Source: an uncultured Thermogutta sp.
GTDB taxonomy: Bacteria; Planctomycetota; Planctomycetia; Pirellulales; Thermoguttaceae
Direction: 5' to 3'
Assembly (NCBI GenBank): GCA_937128505.1
Contig: CAKZMM010000084.1
Coordinates: 62,001-126,000, forward strand
Length of the DNA: 64,000 nt
Shown here: positions 1,733 through 57,144 of the stretch, in pieces
Layout of the letters: the number at the start of each line of letters is the position of its first letter
Numbering within the stretch: the stretch's first letter is position 1
The notes under the pieces: model-generated
What the model was told of the DNA's origin: nothing
Seen by the model: the letters and a program-made list of their open reading frames with translations, nothing else
Database searches by the model: none
Translations under genes and position numbers: made by a program

Positions 1733-2896
1733 TTAGGCGGCAGCTTTTCGCGTATGCTGTACGGGCACAGCGGCTCGACCGTGATAGAACCGGGCAATTT
1801 GGCCCACCAAAAGCCGCTGTTCTTCGTAAGTAAGCTCGGGAAAAATCGGGAGGGCAAGCACCTCTCGTGTCGCCCGGTAGGTTTCCGGCAAATCCTCCGG
1901 GGCATAGCCCAAGTGAGCAAAACATTCTTGCTCATGAAGCCCCAGCGGGTAGTAGATCTCAGTACCGATTTGTGCCTCCGTCAAATGGGTCCGCAGCAAG
2001 TCGCGATTACCCTCCGGCACGCGGATTACAAACTGGTTCCAAACATGTTTGGCAGCAGGATCCACGTAGGGCAAGCCAAGGATGTGATCCAACTGAAATT
2101 CACGAAATAGGTCGAAATATCGCCGCGCGTTTTCCGCCCGTTGTTTTTCCCACTGGGGAAGGTGGCGAAGCTTGACCCGAAGCACGGCAGCCTGGAAGGC
2201 ATCCAGCCGGCTGTTGATGCCGATCATCCGATGGTAATACCGGGGGTGCATCCCGTGGACACGAAGCAGGCGGAATTTGGCCGCCAACGTGTCACAAGCG
2301 GTGGACAGCATTCCCCCGTCCCCGGCTCCGCCGAGGTTTTTGGTTGGATAAAAACTAAAGCAACCCACTAAGCCCATTCCCCCTGCGGGCCGACCGACCC
2401 ATTGGGCACCGATTGCCTGGGCTGCATCTTCAATCACCGCAATCTGACGGGATTGTACGGTGGCCATCAGGCGGTCCATCGGGGCGCACTGCCCGAAAAG
2501 ATGAACCGCAATGATCGCGCGAGTACGCTCTGTTATTCGCGACGCAACATCCTTCGGATCAAGGTTGTACGTTGCCGGGTCAATATCCGCAAAAACCGGG
2601 GTAGCCCCTAAACGACTGACGGCACTGGCCGTTGCAAAAAAAGTGAAGCTGGGAACGACCACCTCATCCCCAGGCCCAATGTTTAACGCCATAAGGGCCA
2701 AAAGGAGCGCGTCGCTCCCTGAGGCGCAAGCGACCGCATGTTTCAATCCTAGGCACTCAGCGAATTCCCGCTCAAATTGGCCGACCGCTGGTCCAAGGGC
2801 AAAGACGCCGGAATCCCAAACCTTGGCCAGTTCCGCAAGTACGTCCTCTCGAAGTGAAACAAGTTGCCGACTAAGATCAAAAAAAGGCACCAGCAT
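1733..2896 (-). CDS. DegT/DnrJ/EryC1/StrS family sugar aminotransferase, cytoplasmic
   Basis: This is a PLP-dependent fold-type I aminotransferase of the family that aminates nucleotide-linked keto-sugars (WecE, WbpE/WlbC and relatives). An upstream ATG at 2923 adds nine atypical residues, so I start at MLVPFFDL, the usual beginning of the family. Visible signatures are GSDALLLAL (phosphate-binding turn), VIEDAAQAIGA with the Asp that binds the PLP ring nitrogen, and YPTKNLGGAGDGG with the Schiff-base Lys at about residue 186. The length, ~387 residues, is normal. Unlike the three paralogues at 14-19.5 kb it has no export signal, so it should act in the cytoplasm, probably in surface polysaccharide precursor synthesis. 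No partner sugar-nucleotide gene is adjacent, so the substrate cannot be named. Confidence 0.93.
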   Translation of the reverse strand: MLVPFFDLSRQLVSLREDVLAELAKVWDSGVFALGPAVGQFEREFAECLGLKHAVACASGSDALLLALMALNIGPGDEVVVPSFTFFATASAVSRLGATPVFADIDPATYNLDPKDVASRITERTRAIIAVHLFGQCAPMDRLMATVQSRQIAVIEDAAQAIGAQWVGRPAGGMGLVGCFSFYPTKNLGGAGDGGMLSTACDTLAAKFRLLRVHGMHPRYYHRMIGINSRLDAFQAAVLRVKLRHLPQWEKQRAENARRYFDLFREFQLDHILGLPYVDPAAKHVWNQFVIRVPEGNRDLLRTHLTEAQIGTEIYYPLGLHEQECFAHLGYAPEDLPETYRATREVLALPIFPELTYEEQRLLVGQIARFYHGRAAVPVQHTRKAAA

Positions 2897-4657
2897 GTTG
2901 CCACCTTTGGCGGGAGTTCCCAACCGTGTTCTGGATTTCTATCTTTCTTAAACGCGGGATTCTGGGTCGAAGCCGCAAAAAACGGGCATCGGCACCGGTT
3001 CGCTCAAATCGGGGTGAGCCCCCCGCTTTTTAAACCTTTTGTCAAATGGACTGCTGCGGGAGAATAAAAACTCAGGTGATCCACCGTCAAGGCGACTATA
3101 GGCCCTTTGTTTCTGCATTTCTGAATTTCTGCACCGAGCAGAAATACTAAGCGATGGGTAGCGGAGTCGGAGAAGGTATAGGAACCGCCGACCGCTTTCA
3201 CCCGATCAATCCCAAGCCAATTCAAGATGCCAAACCCGCCAATTATGAAACGTGTATCTTGGCTTTGAGCGCGGCGAGAACTCCGCCCAAGTCCGCAGGC
3301 AAATTCAGCCTTTCGTCAGATTCGCAGAGTCAGAGGAGTAATGTTTTAAGTTGGAAGGAAAAGCTAATTCCCGAAGTTTATGGGGTGGCCCACTCGTTTC
3401 AGCTATCGCCGAGAAGCTAAATGGCCAAAAAACCGAATGATGCGGAACTTCAAAGCTAATTGGAAAAGCCTGTGCACGCTGCTTCGGAGAGCCGGGACGA
3501 TTAAGGCGTTCAGCTAGTTCTCAACCAAAGGTTTGCCACTCCAGTTTTTCAACAAATCCATGGCAAAGACCCATCGTGCAAAATGTTTAGACGCTTTCGC
3601 CTCAAAGAAGGCTTTCCTCGCAGTCCTCACATGCTCCAATCCTGAGTTAATTTATCAGCTAGCAGATAATTGTTCACGCAGCGAAGCGTAAATCATTGAA
3701 AAAACATTATTAATTTAATCGTCTTATAAGCTTTAAGAGTTAGGGGCAGTCTAGGTTAGTCTGTATTTGGCTGAAAAGCAGCGCGCCCGGAATATGCGTA
3801 GCTCGGGCTTTTGAACCGGCTAAATCACAGCGTCCCGATTGAGCGGAATCCCTCCTCGATTCTTGCTTTGAGTTTCGGGACCTTAATTTTTGAGGCGGGC
3901 GGATTTCGAGGATCGCAAACGCGGTGCGAGGGTGAGCCGGGTTGGTTGCCAGAGCAGCAAAAGGTCAACGCAGTTTGTGCCCAATTTTCCAACTTTTTTT
4001 ACGGCCACTTTGATCTTCTTTGATAGCCAATTTGATAGCAATACACTACACTGCTTTGCGGATAACGATCGTAAAACTCCTCCAACTTAGGAACGATCGT
4101 GTTACTTCTACAACTTAAGATCGTCTAACGCCTGCAACGTAATTCTGGTGGAAACCGCTGAGCCGACAATCCTAAACCTATCCCAAAATCCGGCACTCTC
4201 AGAATGACGCCGGGGCACCGATTTGCTTCTGCTAGCGCGGTGTTTGCTTCCAAATTCGCCTCCTTCGGGGAGCCTTGGCTCATCCCGATTTGCTTTCGTT
4301 TGAACGGTGTTTGCCTCTGCTGCTGCCGTCAAAGCCACTCAGGACGAGCTTGATTCATTCAGGCCGAGAAGCGGAGTTTGAAATGCTTTTCACGGTGGGT
4401 TCGAGAAGCTTTCCTCGGGGGAGTGATTGCTTTTTGTTTAGCGCGGCAGTTCTTTAAAAAAGGCAGCTTTCAAGCTAAACTCATTTCTTCGTCATCGCTC
4501 GGGAAAGGCGAAGGTTTTTCGCATCCGGGCCTTCGCAGCCGCATGTCGGGAAGGTCCACAAGCTCTAAGGGCCGTCAATTACCCGCATTTCAAACGAGTG
4601 AACGGCGGACCCTTGGGGTGTCGCGGGGTAGGTTGTTGAGTACGAGGGATGTTTAGT
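2897..4657. other. Long intergenic region with weak tandem repeats
   Basis: About 1.7 kb with no supported gene. Short open frames on both strands show no family motifs. At 4064-4140 a unit of roughly 28 bases beginning aacgatcgt and containing caactta recurs two to three times with many changes, and its acgatcgt core is itself palindromic. I see no tRNA or riboswitch. Confidence 0.5.
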
Positions 4658-44921: not shown

Positions 44922-46411
44922 CCGCCTACTATTTGCCCCCCAACAACCGGGGTAAATCAGCCGAGCTTCAAAACCGACCGCACAACCGAGGTTGCAGAAT
45001 TTCGGCGGACTTTCCGACTTGACGCGCGCATTTCGGAAACCCTGCAGTTAATGATAAACTGGCGTAGGATTCAATGCGCGAAAAAATGAACATTTGCGGA
45101 TATGCGTAGACATTTAGACATTTAGAGCAGGGAGGCTCCGCCGAAAGCCTCCGATGAAGTTAGCGTCCCAGTGGTCTGCCCGGCAATAACCTCGCACTTT
45201 GGACCCATCTTGTCAAGAAATCTGAAAGTTCGCGGGAATTCGAAGAGTGTCGATGATTGGGCAGAGTTACCGGCTCCTTCTTGTTGACGACGGCGATCAA
45301 CCAATTTGGGATTCGGGAACTCTCCTTCCGGTCCGTTTATTGGGATTAAGCGGACAACACGCTACAAAAGCGGGCTGAAAATCTTTACCAAAATTGCCGT
45401 CACTCCAAACCGTGTTGCTGCACGCTTTCATGTTTCTCTGATAGACGTAACCATTTGTCCAAACATCAGTTACGTCAGTTAAATTCCTGGACACTTTTAT
45501 TGATCTTCAAAAATTCATTGATCTTCAAAAATTGTTGTAAAAATTCAAACACAGATATGCACAGATTTGCAAAGAGTATAAGAACGATGTCGACCTTTTA
45601 TTATTTTGCATTAATTCAAACCGGCATTACGACTGAGTTTTGTGGTTATCGTTGAAACATAAGCCTTTTATTTTCACTGATTTACGTTAGAAATTAAGTT
45701 CCCGTAGACTGTCACTTCCATAACAAGCAAGCGCGATCTCCCCCGCAGTAAGTATGGAGGATGACCAGTCTCCGCTCTTCCCGAGCATATTCTCTGACTT
45801 ATTTCCCGCCCAACATCTCGTATTCCCCTCATTCCACACCTCTTTTCCTAACCTCTTTTCGTATAGCAGGGTCACTAAACACGGGATGAATGCTGCACTT
45901 AGCATAAAAAAAGGGAGCCGCACAATTATTCATCATCTTTATCACCTATAAGCCAATTCTGAGTCGCCGTAATAAGCCGTTCGAGCTGACCGGAAGCCCA
46001 AGTTCCTTTTAACGGCCAACTGACGTAATTGCGATGGTTCGCGGATGGTAATTGGTCATAATTTTCCAAAGCAGGGAACTTCCGAACGGACGAGTCATTT
46101 GCTAATCTTTCGTATTCCACTGGGCAGAAATCGTTTAATCTTTTCAGAGCCCCCTCCGTCGCCTAATATGCGACAAAACTTGGCAAATATTATAGAACGC
46201 GAGAGTTTAGGACATGTTTAAGATGCTCTACCGATAGCGCGAGACAAAAGGGGGTCAAAAAACCATTGTTAGAGATCGTCACAAGGGAAGCTGCCAAGAC
46301 GCGTGTGCATTGAATTTTTGTTCGCATCGCCAATTCATACACTACTTAATTGATTGTGATGCTCGTCTTTTCGGGATCAATTTTCATAGTAACATCGTGT
46401 TCTAACGAGTC
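44922..46411. other. Long divergent intergenic region
   Basis: About 1.5 kb between the ABC ATPase gene (minus) and galT (plus). It is AT-rich in the middle. Two 18-base copies of attgatcttcaaaaatt(c/g) lie in tandem at 45499-45534. Short frames show no family motif. It probably contains promoters for both sides. Confidence 0.5.
45499..45534. repeat. Two tandem 18-base copies
   Basis: attgatcttcaaaaattc (45499-45516) is followed directly by attgatcttcaaaaattg (45517-45534), one difference. No function evident. Confidence 0.85.
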
Positions 46412-47446
46412 ATGACGTTCGAGCAACGCTGGCACCCTTTACGGGAAGAGTGGGTCGTGATTGCCGCTCACCGGCAGGATCGTCCGTGGTCCGGAGACGA
46501 GGCCCATTTGGGCGACAAGCCACGCCCGCCCTATGATCCGAATTGTTACTTGTGCCCGGGAAATCGTCGGGTCAGTGGTAAACAAAACCCGAATTATGAG
46601 GGGATCTTCGTTTTTGATAATGACCATCCCTGCGTGGCGATGGATGCCCCGGTCGACGTTCCCCCGCCGCCCGGCTTTTACCAAAATCGACCTGCGAGAG
46701 GAATTGCGCGGGTACTGTGTTACACGCCGCGACACGATTTGGCATTAGCCGAGCTCACACTGCCGGAAGTCGTTGCTTTGATCCGGGCTTGGCGGGAACA
46801 ATACATCGATTTAGGAAGTCGGGAGGAGATTGCTCACGTCCTTATTTTTGAGAATAAAGGGGAGGTAGTCGGGGTCTCTAATCCCCACCCGCATTGCCAA
46901 ATTTATGCCACCAACTTCGTCTTCAAGACGATCGAGAACGAAGCGGCGATTTGTCGCCGTCATTGGGAGAGGTATCGCCGGGTCTTATTCCAGGAAATCA
47001 TCGCGACCGAGAAGGCAGATGGACGACGCATTCTGGTCGAAAATGATGGAGCCATCGCTTTCATTCCTTACTTTGCCCGATACGCATACGAAACTTTCGT
47101 GGCGCCCAAGGAGACTCACTTAAGCCTGGCGACCTTATCGGAGCGAGAGATAACAGAGCTAGCGGCCGTCTTGCACGAGGTTTGCATCCGTTTTGATAAT
47201 CTGTGGGAGATCCCATTTCCTTATGTGCTGGCGTTGCACCAGGCACCTACGGATGGTCATGACTATCCGGGCTTTCATTTCCATATGGAGTTTCATCCAC
47301 CGCTGCGAAAGCCGAATCTGCTAAAGTATCTTGCGGGCCCAGAGATTGGGGGCGGCTCTTTTATCAGCGATACCTCGCCGGAGGCTAAAGCGGCCGAACT
47401 ACAGGCGGTCTCAAAAATGCATTACAAAAAGCGAACCTCGTCGTAA
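46412..47446 (+). CDS. galT: Galactose-1-phosphate uridylyltransferase family
   Basis: 344 residues. Exchanges UMP between UDP-glucose and galactose 1-phosphate (Leloir pathway) through a uridylylated His; relatives accept other sugar 1-phosphates. An N-terminal CYLCPGNRR supplies Cys residues of the metal site, [10 protein letters not shown] contains the HPH active site (nucleophile His161, residues 159-161), and the C-terminal part has the second conserved region [15 protein letters not shown]. The length is normal. It is followed on the same strand by an inositol-monophosphatase-like enzyme and a sugar kinase of the GHMP family, a natural substrate supplier, although gaps of 310-490 bases suggest separate promoters. 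Confidence 0.95.
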
Positions 47447-47931
47447 TGGCCGACCCATTCCTTTCTGGGACATCGAGAGAGCGGCTTGCAGTCGGTAATT
47501 ATCGCATCGATTCTCCGGATGGATATGCGTCCAACTGTATGACCCATTTTTCGGAGTGCAGGGCAGCCCTCCGTAAAGCTTTGCAATGCGGGGCCACCAA
47601 ATTTGGGCTCACGATGTTGAGGAGACAACCCCGCCCCTACCGAGCGGTTGAACAGGTGTATCGATGAATGTAAGGTCACGCAGACCCCCGGGTATCGAAC
47701 ACCGCTTTTAGAATCGAGCATGATGCCGAGCGAACCTCCGAGTAGTTACTAAACGGAGAATGTGCGGTGAACGAAAAACGCGGACGAAAAACTCGCCCAC
47801 ACCTAGAGCTTTGAACACGATCGGGAGCAGAAAAATTACTCCGACCCATCCCGATCACACTGGCCATATCTTTTAATGACTTCCCCCAGAAGTTCCGCAG
47901 AATTGGCGTAGCCAAAATGTAGATACAAACG
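47447..47931. other. Intergenic region
   Basis: Between galT and the phosphatase gene. No gene or repeat recognised. Confidence 0.5.
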
Positions 47932-48936
47932 ATGACTCTTGAAGAACTCGTACTCGAGATACGGCACATCCACGATCAGCTACGTGGGCATCTTGCCGCA
48001 AGCTGTGAGGCGGAATCCACGCGGGTTTTGTCGGCGGTCGAGCGGGAGGAATCGGGCGATACCATTTATCGCTTGGATAAGATCGCGGAACCGCTTTTGC
48101 TTCGGCTCTTTGAAAACCTGGCGAGGAAGGAACCGCTTGTCCTAGTTGCCGAGGGTTTGCCTTCCGAAGGCATTCAGTTACCGCGGGGAAAGACGGATGT
48201 GCCGGCACGTTGGAGGGTGATTGTTGACCCGATCGACGGAACCCGCGGGTTAATGTACCAGAAACGAAGCGCTTGGATTTTGACAGCCGTTGCGCCGGAT
48301 CGCGGTCCGGAGACGCGACTGCGAGAGGTCGTGCTAGCTGTACAAACAGAGGTGCCGTTGGTCAAGCAGCATTTGTGCGACCAGCTTTGGGCTATTCGAG
48401 ATAGGTGTGTGGTTGCTGAGCGATTGAATCGATTTAGTGGTGACCGCACGGCATTTCGCCCCAACCCCTCGTCGGCAACCACGTTGCTTCACGGATATGC
48501 CATGTTGAGCCGGTTTTTCCCGGGTGCTCGCGATCTAATCGCCGCGGTTGAGGAAGAAATGCTTTTCGATTTGCTCGGGCCTCAACCGGCGGGAAAAGCC
48601 TTGTGTTTCGAAGATCAATATGCCTGCTCCGGTGGGCAGTTTTATGAGCTGGCCATGGGGCACGATCGCTTTAACGGCGATATTCGCCCCTTATTAGCAG
48701 AGGAACTGCGACGCCGCGGTCGGCCTGTGGGACTGTGCTGCCATCCGTACGATGTTTGCACGGCTTTGATCGCCGAGCAACTCGGCATTGTGCTGACCGA
48801 TCCGTGGGGAGAGCCGCTTGATTGCCCCCTGAACCTAGAAAGCGATGTAGCATGGGTGGGCTATGCGAATGAAGAACTCCGTCGTGTGGTAGAGCCGGTC
48901 TTTCAACGGGTCCTTCGGCAGCATGGGTTGCTGTGA
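47932..48936 (+). CDS. Inositol monophosphatase superfamily enzyme
   Basis: 334 residues, rather longer than the usual ~265. The superfamily metal motif is DPIDGTRGLMYQKRSAW (Asp-Pro-Ile-Asp-Gly-Thr), preceded by a region with LVLVAEGLPSEG that supplies the metal-binding Glu. A C-terminal WGEPLDCPLNLESDVAWVGYAN corresponds to the second conserved block (W-D...G..L). Members dephosphorylate inositol phosphates, fructose 1,6-bisphosphate, PAP or histidinol phosphate; here Arg-Gly-Leu-Met replaces the common N-F after GT, so the substrate class is unclear. It sits between galT and the arabinokinase-like gene, so a sugar phosphate is plausible. Start chosen at the first ATG that leads into LEELVLEIRHIHD. 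Confidence 0.87.
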   Translation: MTLEELVLEIRHIHDQLRGHLAASCEAESTRVLSAVEREESGDTIYRLDKIAEPLLLRLFENLARKEPLVLVAEGLPSEGIQLPRGKTDVPARWRVIVDPIDGTRGLMYQKRSAWILTAVAPDRGPETRLREVVLAVQTEVPLVKQHLCDQLWAIRDRCVVAERLNRFSGDRTAFRPNPSSATTLLHGYAMLSRFFPGARDLIAAVEEEMLFDLLGPQPAGKALCFEDQYACSGGQFYELAMGHDRFNGDIRPLLAEELRRRGRPVGLCCHPYDVCTALIAEQLGIVLTDPWGEPLDCPLNLESDVAWVGYANEELRRVVEPVFQRVLRQHGLL

Positions 48937-49248
48937 CCATAGCGCTGGGGTAGACACGCCTCATATCGAGTTTCGGTTCGGGTGTAACCGCTGACGCTGA
49001 ATAAAAGAAGCTAGTCTGCCGCTCATTGTTCGGGGGAAATAGCCATAGCGAATTTTGCGTGTTTTAAGAATCGTTTCACACGAGGGACTGATAAGCTAAT
49101 TCGCTACTTGGGACTGATAAAGTGTTTCAATATGTAGTGTAGGACCATAAGACTGTTTCGATACGTTTCAATGCTAGACTGTTGGAATAGGTGGCACTGA
49201 TAGAACGTTATAGTCCGTGAGATTGATCAACTATTGGAAGTTGTGTCA
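48937..49248. other. Intergenic region
   Basis: About 310 bases. Short related words (gactgataaa, actgttggaa, gtttcaatat) recur; nothing else recognised. Confidence 0.45.
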
Positions 49249-50742
49249 ATGTCGCAGTTCCAGTTGACGGCAGTTCAAACACGCGAAGATGTACAGAAGT
49301 TTCTCGAGTCGCTCGAAGCGTACACGGATCCTCAAAAGTTGACAGATTTAACGGGAAAAGAGGAACCTTTAGTTAGAAAAGATCTTCCTTTGGTAATTGC
49401 TCGGGCCCCCGGTCGACTTGATGTCATGGGGGGTATTGCGGACTACAGTGGTTCCTTGGTCCTGGAGCTCCCCCTTTCGGAGGCAACCTTTGTCGCAGCC
49501 CAACCGTACGAAGCCCCTGTGTTGATGGTGGTGAGTCTTCCGGGCACGGATCGCCCTTTGCGTACCGCGGAACTTCCCTTGGATTTAATCGAACGGGGAA
49601 CACTGGCAGACTACGAAACTGCCGGCCAGTATTTTTGCCAATCAGATGACGCTCGGTGGGCAGCATATGCGGCCGGGGTGTACCTCGCTCTGGTTTATGA
49701 GGGAAAATTGCGCCCGTCGGGCGGGGTGAAGTTGATCATTGGATCGGACGTACCTGAGGGAAAGGGCGTTAGTTCCTCAGCGGCTTTGGAAGTAGCTTCC
49801 ATGATGGTTGTTGCGGCTCTGCACGGAGTGGAATTGGAGGGCCGCGAATTAGCCATCCTTTGTCAGCGGGTTGAGAACCGGCTTGCTCGGGCTCCTTGCG
49901 GAGTCATGGACCAAATGACGGTTGCCCTCGGTGGAGAGAATCAGCTTCTCGCGCTGCGATGTCAACCGGCAGAGTTATTGCCAACTGTGCCGATTCCTGA
50001 TGGTCTGCGTTTTTGGGGAATTGATTCCGGGGTTCGACACAGCGTATCCGGAGCAGATTACACGTCTGTTCGCATCGGGGCCTTCATGGGCTACCGCATC
50101 ATTGCAGAATTGAAAGGCTGGACAGTGCGGCCGGGAACGCGTCCTGGGCTTGTTGAGGTTGTCGATCCATTGTGGCATGGCTACCTGGCGAACATCCGAC
50201 CGGCGGAATTCACCGCGGAATTTGCCCGGGCATTGCCTGAAAGAATGAAGGGTGGAGAATTTCTCCAGCAATGCGGGGGCACAACCGACCCGGTAACGGA
50301 AGTTCAACCCGATCGCGACTATCCGGTGTTTTATCCCACGGCTCACCCGATTTATGAGAATGATCGCGTTGAGCGATTTGCCGAACTATTGAAGGACCCC
50401 AATTTACCGGAATCCCTTGAGAAACTTTGCGAATTGGGAAATTTGATGTACGAGTCGCACGACAGCTATTCGCGATGTGGTTTGGGGACACCTCAGACCG
50501 ACCTTTTGGTCGATTTGGTCCGGCAGCGTGGCCCTGAAAGAGGACTTTTCGGTGCCAAAATTACGGGCGGTGGTTCCGGCGGTTGCGTCGCCGTATTGGG
50601 AAAGGTCGGAGCAGAAGTGGCGATTGCGGAAATCTGCGAAATATATGCTCAAACTACGGGCTACCGTCCCTATGTATTTGCGGGTAGCTCGCCTGGGGCT
50701 GTTCGCTTTGGGGTGATTAGAATTGAACAAGAAGCTGCGTGA
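49249..50742 (+). CDS. GHMP sugar kinase resembling the kinase domain of plant L-arabinokinase
   Basis: About 497 residues from the ATG at 49249 (GGAAG about eight bases upstream). Kinases of this superfamily phosphorylate C1 of galactose or related sugars. Motif 1 reads APGRLDVMGGIADYSGSLVL (Gly55-Gly68) instead of the galactokinase GRxNLIGEHTDY. Motif 2 is VPEGKGVSSSAALEVASM (Ser175-177 loop), then ENRLARAPCGVMDQMT, FWGIDSGVRHSVSGADY, and motif 3 GAKITGGGSGGCVAVLG. From memory these motif variants are those of plant L-arabinokinase (ARA1), which makes L-arabinose 1-phosphate. Galactokinase or another aldose kinase cannot be excluded. A UDP-sugar-type transferase (GalT) lies 2 kb upstream on the same strand, and a GH127 arabinofuranosidase lies 18 kb away. 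Confidence 0.88.
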   Translation: MSQFQLTAVQTREDVQKFLESLEAYTDPQKLTDLTGKEEPLVRKDLPLVIARAPGRLDVMGGIADYSGSLVLELPLSEATFVAAQPYEAPVLMVVSLPGTDRPLRTAELPLDLIERGTLADYETAGQYFCQSDDARWAAYAAGVYLALVYEGKLRPSGGVKLIIGSDVPEGKGVSSSAALEVASMMVVAALHGVELEGRELAILCQRVENRLARAPCGVMDQMTVALGGENQLLALRCQPAELLPTVPIPDGLRFWGIDSGVRHSVSGADYTSVRIGAFMGYRIIAELKGWTVRPGTRPGLVEVVDPLWHGYLANIRPAEFTAEFARALPERMKGGEFLQQCGGTTDPVTEVQPDRDYPVFYPTAHPIYENDRVERFAELLKDPNLPESLEKLCELGNLMYESHDSYSRCGLGTPQTDLLVDLVRQRGPERGLFGAKITGGGSGGCVAVLGKVGAEVAIAEICEIYAQTTGYRPYVFAGSSPGAVRFGVIRIEQEAA

Positions 50743-51229
50743 ATTAGGGCCGAGAAAGATCCTGGTAACTATCCGCCGCTAAACTTACGAGTTCTTTCTG
50801 AGTTTGCAACTAGAATGCGTGCCTTTTCGCCCGGAGAAAAGTTTTACGGGTGGGGCAATTCCGAAGAGTTTAAGTTTCCGGGAATATCGGGCGAACGGGC
50901 AAAAAGCGGAAACTGAATCGCGAAAGACGGTAGCTGAAAAAAACCAAAAGTGGCAACGATGGAGGATTTGGGGGGATTTGGCTCGTAAGTGCAACGGGGC
51001 AAACCAATTCCGGCAAAGAATGTTTTCTTGAAAATTTTGCGTCTTGGGATTAATCTGAATTAAAGTTGGCGTAATGGTGCATTAAATCCGCTCAAGTTTT
51101 CGACTCAACCGATCGCAAGCCGAATCTGGATCGCTGCTTGTCGCGGTTAGGTGTCTCGGGCTAGCGGCGTATTCGATGATTAGACAGTCATTCAGACAAT
51201 TAACAACAAAGCTTCGCGGAGAAATCAAG
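50743..51229. other. Intergenic region
   Basis: No supported gene. Precedes the exported DUF1598-like gene and should carry its promoter. Confidence 0.5.
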
Positions 51230-52597
51230 ATGTTTGGGTGGGCACTGAAGGCCGATTGGAAACACGGACGCGCGGGGGCAATCCTCCTCGTTGTAATGGT
51301 GACGGGTTTGGTAGCCGCAACCTCAGCGCAGGCTCAGCAATTCTTAAACCAGCGTGCAGTAGGGGGTGTACTAGTGGACCCCAGCGGGATGCTTTCCAAA
51401 GCGGGCCTGAGTGATCTTCAGGAGATTCGCAAGGTCCTTAGTGAAGCCAGCTCGGTAATTCCCCCGGGAATGCGGGCCCGCGCCGAGATGCGTAAGGTGT
51501 CGTTGGCTCGCTTGGGCCAAGCGATCCGCGAGGCGGCCACAAGCGGTAAGGATTTGCCGGCCGAAGTGCAATGTCTGGCAGGGTTGCAAACCATTCACTA
51601 TGTCATCGCCGACCCCGAGACCAAGGACATATTTTTGGTTGGCATTGGTGAGGGTTGGAAGCCGGGGCCCAATGGCAGCTTAATTGGTCTGGAAAGTGGC
51701 GAAGCCATCATGCTTTTGGATGATCTTGTGGTGGCGTTGAGGGCCACTCATACCCCGCAGCCGCAAGTCATTAGTTGCTCCATTGATCCAAGTGCGGAGG
51801 CTCTGCGGCGCTTGCGGGCGTTTGCAAACCGGGTCCCACGGGGCGCAAACCCGCAAGCCATTGCTCAAGACCTCGAGAGAATATTGGGGCCTCAGCAAAT
51901 TACCATTACGGGGGTACCTTCGGAAAGTCATTTTGCGCGGGTCCTGGTGACATCGGATTATCGGCTCAAGCGTTTGGGGCTGGCATTGGATCCGTCGCCG
52001 GTTCCGAATTTGCCGGGCTTTATGGAGTTCATGGGACCGCGGGTGAATTCCACGCTTATGCCCCGGTGGTGGTTAGCTCCGGCGGCAGGGAATTTGAGCC
52101 GAGATCCGGAGGGGCTGATATGGGAGCTACCCGAGGTTCGGGTTCAGGCCTTCACGGAGAACGATTATCTCAACAGCCGGGGCGAAAAGGTGACCGGAGG
52201 TGTAGCCGATCCGGCCGCTCAAAAGTGGGCCAATCTCGTAACCGAGCGGTATGGGCAGCTTTCGCGCGCCGAGCCGGTGTTCGCCCAGTTGCAGAATTGT
52301 ATGGAGCTTGCAGTAGTCGCTGCTTTGTTGGCTCAAGAACGTTTGGCCGAACGGGTGGGGCTAGACTTATCTCCCTTCTTGGATACGCAGCTATTCACCC
52401 CAGTAAGTTTCACGCCCCCCAGTAAGGTAGCAAGCCAATCGTTCGTGGTTCGAAAAGGGGACACCAGCTTGGTCGCTTGCGGGGGTGTGGAGATCAATCC
52501 GTGGAAAATCGTAAGCCGCGTCGAGCAGAAGGATGAACTCAGTAGGGTTCGTTCAGTAGCCACTATCTCAGACGCTAACACGTGGTGGTCGAATTAA
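51230..52597 (+). CDS. Exported protein of a planctomycete family (resembles DUF1598)
   Basis: About 455 residues from the ATG at 51230, with GGAGA seven bases upstream; a further ATG at 51176 lacks one. The signal peptide is at about residues 12-34 (RAGAILLVVMVTGLVAATSAQA, cleaved near AQAQ). The mature part starts QQFLNQRAVGGVLVDPSGML, followed by a segment with GLQTIHYVIADPETKDIFLVG and a Leu/Arg-rich helical middle (LRRLRAFANRVPRG). I recall this pattern from a family confined to planctomycetes, labelled DUF1598, of unknown function. No catalytic motif is visible. The gene stands alone, with a convergent sigma factor 170 bases downstream. Confidence 0.82.
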   Translation: MFGWALKADWKHGRAGAILLVVMVTGLVAATSAQAQQFLNQRAVGGVLVDPSGMLSKAGLSDLQEIRKVLSEASSVIPPGMRARAEMRKVSLARLGQAIREAATSGKDLPAEVQCLAGLQTIHYVIADPETKDIFLVGIGEGWKPGPNGSLIGLESGEAIMLLDDLVVALRATHTPQPQVISCSIDPSAEALRRLRAFANRVPRGANPQAIAQDLERILGPQQITITGVPSESHFARVLVTSDYRLKRLGLALDPSPVPNLPGFMEFMGPRVNSTLMPRWWLAPAAGNLSRDPEGLIWELPEVRVQAFTENDYLNSRGEKVTGGVADPAAQKWANLVTERYGQLSRAEPVFAQLQNCMELAVVAALLAQERLAERVGLDLSPFLDTQLFTPVSFTPPSKVASQSFVVRKGDTSLVACGGVEINPWKIVSRVEQKDELSRVRSVATISDANTWWSN

Positions 52598-55151: not shown

Positions 55152-56117
55152 TCACTCGATTTCGATGAGGCTCAGCCCCGCCTGCTCGGAAGTTTCGCGG
55201 TCCAAAACGATTTTGCGCAACCGCGGTAGGATTCTCTCCAAACTTTCCCAGTAAAGCCGCCGAAGGTTCGCCGCTCGATTGGTGCCCAACTCCCCGACCA
55301 TCTGAAGGAATCGATCCCGATTCCCTTGGGCTCGCGCGAGAATTTCGTTCCCGTGGCTTTCCGCTTCCTGCAACAAACGGTCAGCCTCTCCGCGCGCTTT
55401 GGGCAGCAAGCTGTTGGCGTAGCTTTGCGCTTCGTTGACCAGGCGCTGAGCGTCCTCTCGCGCAGCGGTTACCTCACGAAAGGCATTCGCTACTTCTGCC
55501 GGCGGACTTAAACCCTCCAAGGATATGGACATGATCTCTACTCCCAAGCCGTATTGATCCAAGATTTCCTGCACAGTTCGCTGCGCAGAACTTTGGAGGG
55601 TTAGCCGATCCACGGTCAGCACACTATCCACCCCCGATCGCGACATCAGCTCGCAAAAAACAGAGGTCGTGACCATCGCAACTGTTTGCGGTACATCCAC
55701 GCAGGCGAATAGGTAGGCGTGACAATCGCGGATCCGGTACTGAGCGATTCCCGACAAAAGAATTAAATTGTAATCGCCGGTCAGACACTCGAGTTCCTGC
55801 GGCTGAATTCTCCGCCCCAAGGATCGCTCCATGAGTAGGCCGCCAATCGGCACCCGCTTGTGCTCGAAGACCCGGAGGCGATCGACGCGATCTAGCGGTA
55901 CGGGGAGTCCCCAATGGAGCCCTGGCCCAACCACCCCGGGAATTGCCCTGCCGAACCGCCTCACAACGGCTCGCTCGTTCGGTTGCACCACGTAAAAACC
56001 GGTTGCCAGATAAACAACTATCCCCCACGGCAGTGCCCGAAAAAGCCACCCGCGGATTTTCGCGCCCGCGCCTTTTTTACGAACCAAGGTCCGTTTATCT
56101 TCGTAAGTGCGGTGCAT
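55152..56117 (-). CDS. hflK: HflK-like SPFH-domain membrane protein
   Basis: 321 residues. A cytoplasmic basic N-terminus, one transmembrane helix (about residues 27-48, WLFRALPWGIVVYLATGF), then an SPFH domain outside the cytoplasm: VVQPNERAVVRRFGRAIPGVVGPGLHWGLP, GDYNLILLSGIAQYRIRD and DQYGLGVEIMSISLEGLSPP. A long charged coiled coil follows (FREVTAAREDAQRLVNEAQ, ARGEADRLLQEAESHG), ending in RLRKIVLDRE. HflK and HflC form a large ring-shaped complex that modulates the FtsH protease in Escherichia coli. Here it is 79 bases downstream of an HflC-type gene and ~1.2 kb from the ATPase-SPFH fusion, in one operon. Confidence 0.93.
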   Translation of the reverse strand: MHRTYEDKRTLVRKKGAGAKIRGWLFRALPWGIVVYLATGFYVVQPNERAVVRRFGRAIPGVVGPGLHWGLPVPLDRVDRLRVFEHKRVPIGGLLMERSLGRRIQPQELECLTGDYNLILLSGIAQYRIRDCHAYLFACVDVPQTVAMVTTSVFCELMSRSGVDSVLTVDRLTLQSSAQRTVQEILDQYGLGVEIMSISLEGLSPPAEVANAFREVTAAREDAQRLVNEAQSYANSLLPKARGEADRLLQEAESHGNEILARAQGNRDRFLQMVGELGTNRAANLRRLYWESLERILPRLRKIVLDRETSEQAGLSLIEIE

Positions 56118-56196
56118 GCTTCAGTCTTTCTAACCCTTTCCCGGCCGGGTCGGAAAACGGATGCCTGTTTGGTCAAAGTGCTCCGTTCACGCTACC

Positions 56197-57144
56197 CTAT
56201 TGCGTTGCGGAAATACCCCCGGGGCCGCGATCCGCAGCCATCGGCGGCACGGTCGTCTCGGCAGGAGGCTGCGTTAAGAGGCGCAAGAGCTCGGAGTCGG
56301 TGGATAGCACGATGGTCGTTTTATCGTCCAAAAAGCGTTCGTAGGCTTCCAAAGTGCGAATCAATTGGTAAAAGCGAGGATCTGTGCCATATGCTTGACC
56401 ATAGATTCGGATCGCTTCAGCCTCGGCTTCTCCTCGAATGCGCTCGGCTTCCGCCTGAGCCTTTGCCAAGAGGACGGTTCGCTCTTTATCGGCACTCGCA
56501 CGGATTTTTATCGCCTGCTCTTCCCCTTCGGCTCGATACTGGCTGGCAATCCTCGCCCGTTCCGTCCGCATCCGTTCGAAAACGCTTTCACGCACTTGAG
56601 CGGGGTAGTTGATCCGCTTAAGTCGCACGTCCACGATCTCAATCCCATAGGCATGCCTGGCCACCCCGCTAACACGCCGATGGACCGCCTCGATCAATTC
56701 GGCAAGCCGATGTTTTTCCGGGTTCACACTGACTAAGGCCTCCAATTCGTTGCGGCCCACTTCCGCGGCCAACTCCGACCATATCAAGTCGTGCAACCGA
56801 GATTCCGCGCCCGGAAAATCGTTTACGGTCTCGAGGAACTTTTGCGGTTCTGCTACCCGCCAACAAACGAACACGTCCAAATCGACATTCTTTTTTTCCT
56901 TTGCAAGAAACTCCGATGGCCGTGGATCATACATCTGTAATCGTCGATCAATACGAATCACAGACTGGTACGGCAACTTAAAGTGCAGGCCGGCATCGTC
57001 GAGTCGCTCGTTGAGAACGGCAACCGGGCGACCAAATTGCGTGACGATCACCGTCTCGGCCTGATCGACAAAAACTACCGACCTTCCGATGGCCAAAACC
57101 CCCAAGGCGACCAGAAGTAAAACCCACCATCTCATACCGATCAC
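56197..57144 (-). CDS. hflC: HflC-like SPFH-domain membrane protein
   Basis: 315 residues. A near-N-terminal helix (about residues 5-25, WWVLLLVALGVLAIGRSVVFV) is followed by FVDQAETVIVTQFGRPVAVL, LDDAGLHFKLPYQSVIRIDRR, LDVFVCWRV and YGIEIVDVRLKRINYP, the SPFH core, then a coiled coil rich in Glu, Arg and Ala (MRTERARIASQYRAEGEEQ, AKAQAEAERIRGEAEAEAI) and FYQLIRTLEAYERFL. All of this matches HflC. The gene order ATPase-SPFH, hflC, hflK reverses the usual hflK-hflC order and puts the fusion first, as if its SPFH part were the third member of the complex. Confidence 0.95.
   Translation of the reverse strand: MIGMRWWVLLLVALGVLAIGRSVVFVDQAETVIVTQFGRPVAVLNERLDDAGLHFKLPYQSVIRIDRRLQMYDPRPSEFLAKEKKNVDLDVFVCWRVAEPQKFLETVNDFPGAESRLHDLIWSELAAEVGRNELEALVSVNPEKHRLAELIEAVHRRVSGVARHAYGIEIVDVRLKRINYPAQVRESVFERMRTERARIASQYRAEGEEQAIKIRASADKERTVLLAKAQAEAERIRGEAEAEAIRIYGQAYGTDPRFYQLIRTLEAYERFLDDKTTIVLSTDSELLRLLTQPPAETTVPPMAADRGPGGISATQ

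Follow-up and report, generated by a model that had tools for sequence, protein, structure and literature searches.

The window, the whole stretch of 64,000 nucleotides analyzed here from an uncultured Thermogutta sp. (host genome assembly, 5.58 Mb), contains an intact gene for a GHMP-family kinase that clusters with genes for a GalT paralogue and an inositol-monophosphatase-like protein (IMP); the kinase is separate from the galactokinase GalK, and the cluster GalT is separate from the GalTs linked to GalK. We propose, with the case about evenly balanced, that the kinase is an L-arabinose 1-kinase that would catalyze the first step of a Leloir-type L-arabinose route, with substrates and a step order that we infer. 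The full picture is a little less probable: a complete bacterial L-arabinose route in which C4 would be inverted on the nucleotide sugar. In it, a kinase of the ARA1 type, a GalT or GalU-like enzyme dedicated to the route, GalE and phosphatases of a new family specific for D-xylose 1-phosphate would feed xylose isomerase, with the kinase broadly spread and plant ARA1 as an acquired and repurposed member of its family.

The kinase frame opens with a TTG at position 49234, followed by the ATG from which the coordinates in Table 1 are counted, and its stop codon ends at 50742. The Pfam domains GHMP_kinases_N, GHMP_kinases_C and GalKase_gal_bdg were all identified above their cut-offs, the last one barely (24.5 vs. 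a cut-off of 23.1), and the N- and C-domains together with the glycine/serine motif place the protein in the GHMP kinase superfamily. Five NCBIfam galactokinase models matched the kinase, all below cut-off (127.9 vs. 226.65 for TIGR00131), so that no curated galactokinase model assigns it as an equivalog. The AlphaFold2 model of the kinase (mean pLDDT 90.4) resembles human GALK1 (6gr2) with a Z score of 39.0 and an rmsd of 2.2 over 374 residues. The Pfam domains, the relatives with 41-66% identity and the GALK1-like model argue that the frame and its motifs are not due to chance. Three motifs that had been quoted in the preliminary description are all present in the translated frame, except that the spacer in VEN..APCG consists of four residues (RLAR) rather than the two dots written there. 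We take PEGKGVSSSAA to be the phosphate-binding GHMP motif, and Asp221, the equivalent of GALK1 Asp186, to be the proposed catalytic base. A scan for promoters and terminators over positions 45900-51300 yielded about as many sites as shuffled sequences (2 vs. 3.7 and 7 vs. 6.8).

Table 1. Features of the kinase cluster in the window, with gene orders at selected loci of related kinases.
Feature	Position	Strand	Remarks
GalT paralogue, proposed L-Ara-1-P / Xyl-1-P uridylyltransferase	46412..47446	+	TIGR00209
IMP, inositol-monophosphatase-like, proposed D-xylose-1-phosphate phosphatase	47932..48936	+	334 aa
DPIDGT	48226..48243	+	Metal-binding motif of IMP (Asp99, Asp102, Thr104)
GHMP-family kinase, proposed L-arabinose 1-kinase	49249..50742	+	497 aa (P0001)
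APGRLDVMGGIADYSGSLVL	49405..49464	+	Sugar-site motif of kinase, residues 53-72; Gly62/Ile63 at the GALK1 Glu43/His44 positions
PEGKGVSSSAA	49753..49785	+	GHMP motif of kinase
VENRLARAPCGVMDQMT	49870..49920	+	VEN-RLAR-APCGVMDQMT, residues 208-224; Asp221 equivalent to GALK1 Asp186
FWGIDSGVRHSVSGADY	50011..50061	+	Residues 255-271; Tyr271 equivalent to GALK1 Tyr236
KITGGGSGG	50557..50583	+	C-terminal GHMP glycine motif of kinase
L011 (Acidobacteriota)			GH51-GalT-IMP-KIN-GalE-XylA-GH127
L064 (Acidobacteriota)			GH51-GalT-IMP-KIN-SBP-XylB-XylA
L009 (Acidobacteriota)			GH51-GalT-IMP-KIN-SBP-XylA
L162 (Acidobacteriota)			GalT-IMP-KIN-GalE-XylA
L154 (Planctomycetota)			XylA-GalE-GalT-IMP-KIN, AraC-type regulator upstream
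L055 (Planctomycetota)			GalT-IMP-KIN, then GH51-like and GH127-like ORFs

To place the kinase among its relatives, we scanned one genome from each of 84,980 species, which yielded 275 relatives; we retained the best 80 of them, and the survey therefore leans towards close relatives. Among these 80, 71 (L004-L074) are at least 41% identical to the window kinase, while nine (L075-L083) show 26-31% identity and are ordinary GalK by motif. The relatives in the family are 41-66% identical, mostly across nearly the full length, and the nearest named relatives among the best 80 of the 275 come from Thermoguttaceae MAGs (L004, L005). In a tree of 91 rows, which like our other trees was built by a quick method with one support value, the 25 GalK rows formed one side of a branch with a support of 100. 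Two family members with internal stops (L015, L046) and three GalK rows (L075, L076, L083) were excluded from the tree and the residue counts, and the motif table lacks L035, L056, L062, L066, L067 and L072, six of the family's 71 loci.

The residues that line the sugar site point in the same direction. At the position of GALK1 Glu43, all 65 family rows have glycine, and the kinase thus has no sugar motif of the GE[HY]TD[YF] type with Glu43, whereas 23 of the 24 GalK rows have Glu or Asp, the remaining row having a gap. The position of His44 is occupied by Ile, Phe or Val in 65/65 family rows, while the equivalents of Arg37, Asp46 and Asp186 are kept in all 65 and that of Tyr236 in 64. L-arabinose is galactose minus its CH2OH group, and if Glu43 contacts the C6 hydroxyl of galactose, as we assume, its loss would suit L-arabinose or another sugar that lacks C6. 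By tree and residue signatures, the kinase family is well separated from GalK, which upholds the earlier view that the kinase is not an ordinary galactokinase; a grouping with ordinary galactokinases, which had been named as the refuting outcome, did not occur in the 91-row tree. An approximate sequence for the kinase domain of plant ARA1 shares 53-56% identity with the six family rows nearest to it and no more than 29% with the GalK rows, and with this approximate query no starred branch (comprising up to half of the 91 rows) contains the ARA1 sequence. The identities agree with the earlier view and are a lead towards a possible kinship with ARA1.

The family has a patchy phyletic distribution, which counts against the proposed route. 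Of 40 genomes, comprising that of the window and those of 39 relatives, three encode the kinase, all from the genus of the window. It was also identified in 10 of 195 Planctomycetota genomes and in 18 of 60 genomes from the family to which the Pyrinomonadaceae MAG G055 belongs. Among the best 80 of the 275 relatives, it is also present in Chloroflexota, Gemmatimonadota and others, and by our own assignment of phylum labels the family spans about a dozen phylum-level groups. Its carriers include the cultured Dictyobacter aurantiacus and D. arantiisoli (loci L013, L059). In a plasmid collection, 66 records match the kinase, all with less than 60% identity, and the 40 matches listed of these 66 are either annotated as galactokinase or unannotated at the match.

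We examined the neighborhoods of 86 kinase loci (71 from the species scan, the window and 14 retrieved later, with duplicates removed) by tblastn with one query per family, counting matches of at least 80 bits that lie within 6 kb on the strand of the kinase, a procedure that misses divergent neighbors. In total, GalT was found at 59 loci, IMP at 51 and GalE at 26, and the corresponding numbers were 41, 33 and 20 at the 57 loci whose flanks extend to 3.5 kb or more upstream and 1.5 kb or more downstream. A sugar-binding protein (13 loci), an importer ATPase (10), GH51 arabinofuranosidase (8), GalM (6), xylose isomerase (5), a GalU-like enzyme (5), xylulokinase (2) and GH127 (2) were recovered less often among the 86. 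The five loci with a GalU-like nucleotidyltransferase beside the kinase (L063, L068, L069, L158, L161) are loci where GalT was not found. Some of the clusters combine arabinofuranosidase or xylose isomerase genes with the core set (Table 1), and it is the gene context of these relatives that points to an unusual route of arabinose breakdown, as had been suggested from the window. The XylA of L154 belongs to the other xylose isomerase family (661 bits vs. a cut-off of 533), neither the GH51-like nor the GH127-like ORF of L055 reaches the cut-off of the NCBIfam model that it matched, and at L030 and L040 GH51 is encoded near the kinase on the opposite strand.

Several features of these neighborhoods count against the route. 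No arabinose or xylose gene adjoins the cluster in the window, and those near other kinases are mostly from Acidobacteriota, with L154, L055, L030 and L040 as exceptions. The 14 loci retrieved after the hypothesis had been stated, which include L154 and L162, have GalT nearby in 10 cases, IMP in 10, GalE in six and a GalU-like enzyme in two, with xylose isomerase within 6 kb at only two and GH51 at only one. Among the 57 well-flanked loci, 11 have neither GalT nor a GalU-like enzyme nearby and 13 have GalT without IMP; in ten ORFs near the kinase that were searched for a substitute phosphatase, no phosphatase family was found. GalE, GalM and DeoR regulators would fit galactose operons as well. 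Finally, the three genes in the window are separated by gaps of 485 bp (between GalT and IMP) and 297 bp (between IMP and kinase), so that they may or may not be co-transcribed.

Other genes were observed nearby. Downstream of the kinase, positions 51176-52597 of the window encode a DUF1598 protein (PF07643) that is probably unrelated to the cluster, and two adjoining frames on the - strand at 55152-57144 resemble HflK/HflC-type membrane proteins by eye. Enolase-family sugar-acid dehydratases are located near the kinase at two loci without GalT (L006:6055-7227, L043:6362-7633), which may hint at a different sugar fate there. The Polyangiaceae genome that holds L030 also contains a second cluster-type GalT with an IMPase-like gene (L127, G053:C245, positions 1820-3912).

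The GalT-family enzyme that had been reported next to the kinase was confirmed with 289.6 bits to its family model (cut-off, 102.1). We compared 47 cluster GalT frames of at least 300 aa, one of which is the second copy in G053, and a branch with a support of 98 sets these rows apart as a group. Their mean mutual identity is 62%, as compared to 35% to the GalK-linked GalTs. The HPH triad and zinc ligands (residues 52, 55, 115, 164 and 166) are kept in 47/47, in line with membership in the GalT family. The position of E. coli GalT Tyr316 is occupied by proline in 45 of the 47 cluster GalTs and in none of the nine GalK-linked GalTs; in our alignment it corresponds to Tyr339 of human GALT, which sits in the Glc-1-P site according to PMC5081055. 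E. coli Gln323 was also considered as a diagnostic residue and dropped, as it is lost in GalK-linked GalTs too.

The IMP of the window scores 23.5 bits against Pfam Inositol_P, which is below the cut-off of 27, while that of L154 passes. Its predicted structure resembles the AF2372 IMPase (Z score 26.5, rmsd 2.2 over 248 residues), and Asp49, Glu74, Asp99, Asp102, Thr104 and Asp274 are invariant in 17/17 rows; having matched them by motif, we take these to be the equivalents of the IMPase catalytic residues. The fold and the two-metal motifs (Glu, DPxDGT, Asp) place the protein in the inositol monophosphatase superfamily.

We also studied the genomic complement of 18 distinct genomes (20 handles, two of them duplicates), which we selected, mostly for their long contigs, from the 72 kinase carriers known at that point. 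A separate GalK was identified above cut-off in all 18, always outside the kinase cluster, and nine of these GalKs have an adjacent GalT of their own. For these 18 genomes, a simple replacement of GalK by the kinase is thereby ruled out. In one genome (G046), GalK is only 2.4 kb from the cluster GalT, and this genome was left out of a matched control in which the kinase and GalK stretches of the other 17 were compared. IMP was found in 13/17 kinase stretches and in 0/17 GalK stretches, GalT in 15 and nine, and arabinose or xylose genes in three and one, respectively, the last being an 83-bit match to the XylB query; the comparison for the arabinose or xylose genes weighs against the route.

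These data bear on an alternative by which the cluster is a second, divergent galactose Leloir set, consisting of a galactokinase with a changed pocket and the usual GalT and GalE, with IMP removing excess galactose 1-phosphate and GH51 and GH127 serving to debranch arabinogalactan. We consider this unlikely. Animal inositol monophosphatase can hydrolyze galactose 1-phosphate, GalT, GalE and GalM do neighbor the kinase, and in two genomes (G043, G055) the cluster GalT is the sole GalT found, which counts against the arabinose route. However, a galactose kinase is already present in every genome tested, in half of them with its own GalT, and the equivalents of GALK1 Glu43 and His44 are invariably lost in the kinase family. 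Moreover, a Pfam survey of 150 of the 180 same-strand neighbor ORFs (299 ORFs in total within 5 kb) recovered arabinofuranosidase domains repeatedly (Alpha-L-AF_C in 5/74 ORFs, GH127 in 2/76) and no galactosidase family among the best 25 of 76 and the best 25 of 90 families; the ORFs were chosen by hand, and the survey is not blind since several ORFs already known to encode an arabinofuranosidase, XylA or XylB were excluded while others were kept.

Xylose isomerase was identified above cut-off in 18/18 genomes (TIGR02630 in six, TIGR02631 in 13, one genome having both), while the N-domain of AraA was found in only one, weakly (25 bits vs. a cut-off of 24). Among the 195 Planctomycetota genomes, 10 have the kinase, 14 have AraA and one (G202) has both. 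AraA is thus present in 1/10 kinase-bearing genomes vs. 13/185 others, which is no complementarity and counts against the route, as does the modest excess of xylose isomerase (8/10 vs. 97/185). The absence of AraA was dropped as proof of the route, AraA being rare in the phylum anyway and co-occurring with the kinase in G202. It also counts against the route that XylB was missing at E <= 1e-80 from six of the 18 genomes, including that of the window and both its genus mates.

Additional GHMP proteins were observed. A third frame resembling GHMP kinases, 467-476 aa in length (G000:C77:14861-16000; also on G001:C17 and G002:C17), scores 97-116 bits against the galactokinase model, which is below cut-off, and is neither the window kinase nor GalK. 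Eight genomes (G003, G006, G007, G012, G014, G015, G017, G020) have frames of 852-951 aa that match GHMP weakly and are perhaps fucokinase/pyrophosphorylase fusions.

In the L-arabinose route that we favor, the kinase would convert L-arabinose to L-arabinopyranose 1-phosphate, which the GalT paralogue, or the GalU-like enzyme in some lineages, would convert to UDP-L-arabinose. A GalE-type epimerase would then invert C4 and interconvert UDP-L-arabinose and UDP-D-xylose, and the same transferase would use UDP-xylose as the UMP donor for the next L-arabinose 1-phosphate, with release of D-xylose 1-phosphate. Hydrolysis of the latter to D-xylose by IMP would pull the reversible steps forward, and xylose isomerase and xylulokinase would convert D-xylose via D-xylulose to D-xylulose 5-phosphate. 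This is the simplest scheme that uses all the conserved parts, and it would explain why a phosphatase is added, why there is a second GalT in those genomes that have a GalK-linked one, the swap for a GalU-like enzyme and why some clusters contain xylose isomerase. Interconversion of UDP-Xyl and UDP-L-Arap is also described for some plant UDP-Glc 4-epimerases (PMC5897480).

The cluster could instead serve a plant-like salvage of L-arabinose to UDP-L-arabinose for glycan synthesis, with IMP as a brake on L-arabinose 1-phosphate. This we regard as rather improbable. Plant ARA1 and UDP-sugar pyrophosphorylase do activate L-arabinose to UDP-L-arabinose in this manner (PMC5897480), and a GalU-like enzyme is found beside the kinase at five loci; yet some clusters hold glycosidases, sugar importers, DeoR regulators, xylose isomerase and xylulokinase, and the Pfam survey recovered no glycosyltransferase family among the best 25 of 76 and the best 25 of 90 families. 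That the same logic of steps acts on another sugar, one that lacks the C6 hydroxyl or whose C5 substituent is changed (for example D-fucose, a uronic or a branched sugar), is doubtful: the pocket change drops the Glu43 equivalent but names no sugar, and there are dehydratases near the kinase at L006 and L043, but the xylose isomerase and xylulokinase of several clusters would match a route with xylose as its end, and arabinofuranosidases adjoin the kinase in some.

L-arabinose is a major sugar of the plant cell wall. If the proposed route is true, bacteria of a broad though patchy range would have a way of using arabinose without AraA, a conserved IMPase-like family would be given a function and a galactose annotation would be corrected. 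For synthesis, the clusters would also provide L-arabinokinases of bacterial origin and enzymes acting on UDP-pentoses, and the origin of plant ARA1 would be made testable. In the open-access literature (preprints and subscription papers being outside this scope), none of the matches listed deals with an ARA1-type kinase from bacteria or with an arabinose Leloir-type pathway; the enzyme families are known, while their combination did not appear among the matches listed.

The route can be compared to several known systems. The AraA/AraB/AraD pathway converts L-arabinose to D-xylulose 5-phosphate, and the proposed route would share its start and end. It would differ in that C4 is inverted while the sugar is bound to a nucleotide, which, we infer, would take one more ATP, and the AraA N-domain was not found in 17 of the 18 kinase genomes. 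With the Leloir pathway (GalK, GalT, GalE, GalM) it has in common the protein superfamilies and the sequence of a kinase step, uridylyl exchange and C4 epimerization on a UDP-sugar. Unlike in that pathway, the proposed substrate is a pentose, an IMPase-like protein is added, the proposed end is at xylose isomerase, and the cluster is separate from the cell's own GalK.

At the level of single proteins, the kinase shares its fold and catalytic residues with GalK and GALK1 but forms a separate group, with Glu43 replaced by Gly and His44 by Ile, scores below the NCBIfam galactokinase cut-offs and coexists with GalK in all genomes tested. IMP shares the fold and catalytic motifs of the IMPase/SuhB/FBPase family but is very remote in sequence, and in the comparison of 17 genomes it was found near the kinase and never near GalK. 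Among solved structures, the one nearest to the kinase is AbGHMP (PDB 9ULX/9ULY), which matches kinase residues 47-493 with 511 bits and 57% identity. AbGHMP is a clear homolog that falls inside the kinase family, in the same group as the window kinase, but it is a separate protein, 72% identical to its nearest family row (L043, an Acidobacteria MAG). 9ULX is absent from the rows of the fold comparison (library to 2026-04-08), and a search of the open-access literature found no paper that mentions the name or either code. Plant ARA1 has an N-terminal glycosyltransferase-like domain. It resembles the bacterial kinase in its reaction (EC 2.7.1.46), as proposed for the latter, and, judged by the approximate ARA1 sequence, in the GGIADYSG-type motif and kinase domain. 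The bacterial protein differs in that its 497 aa make up a single kinase unit without such an N-terminal domain, and in that its proposed role is in breakdown, whereas that of ARA1 is in salvage.
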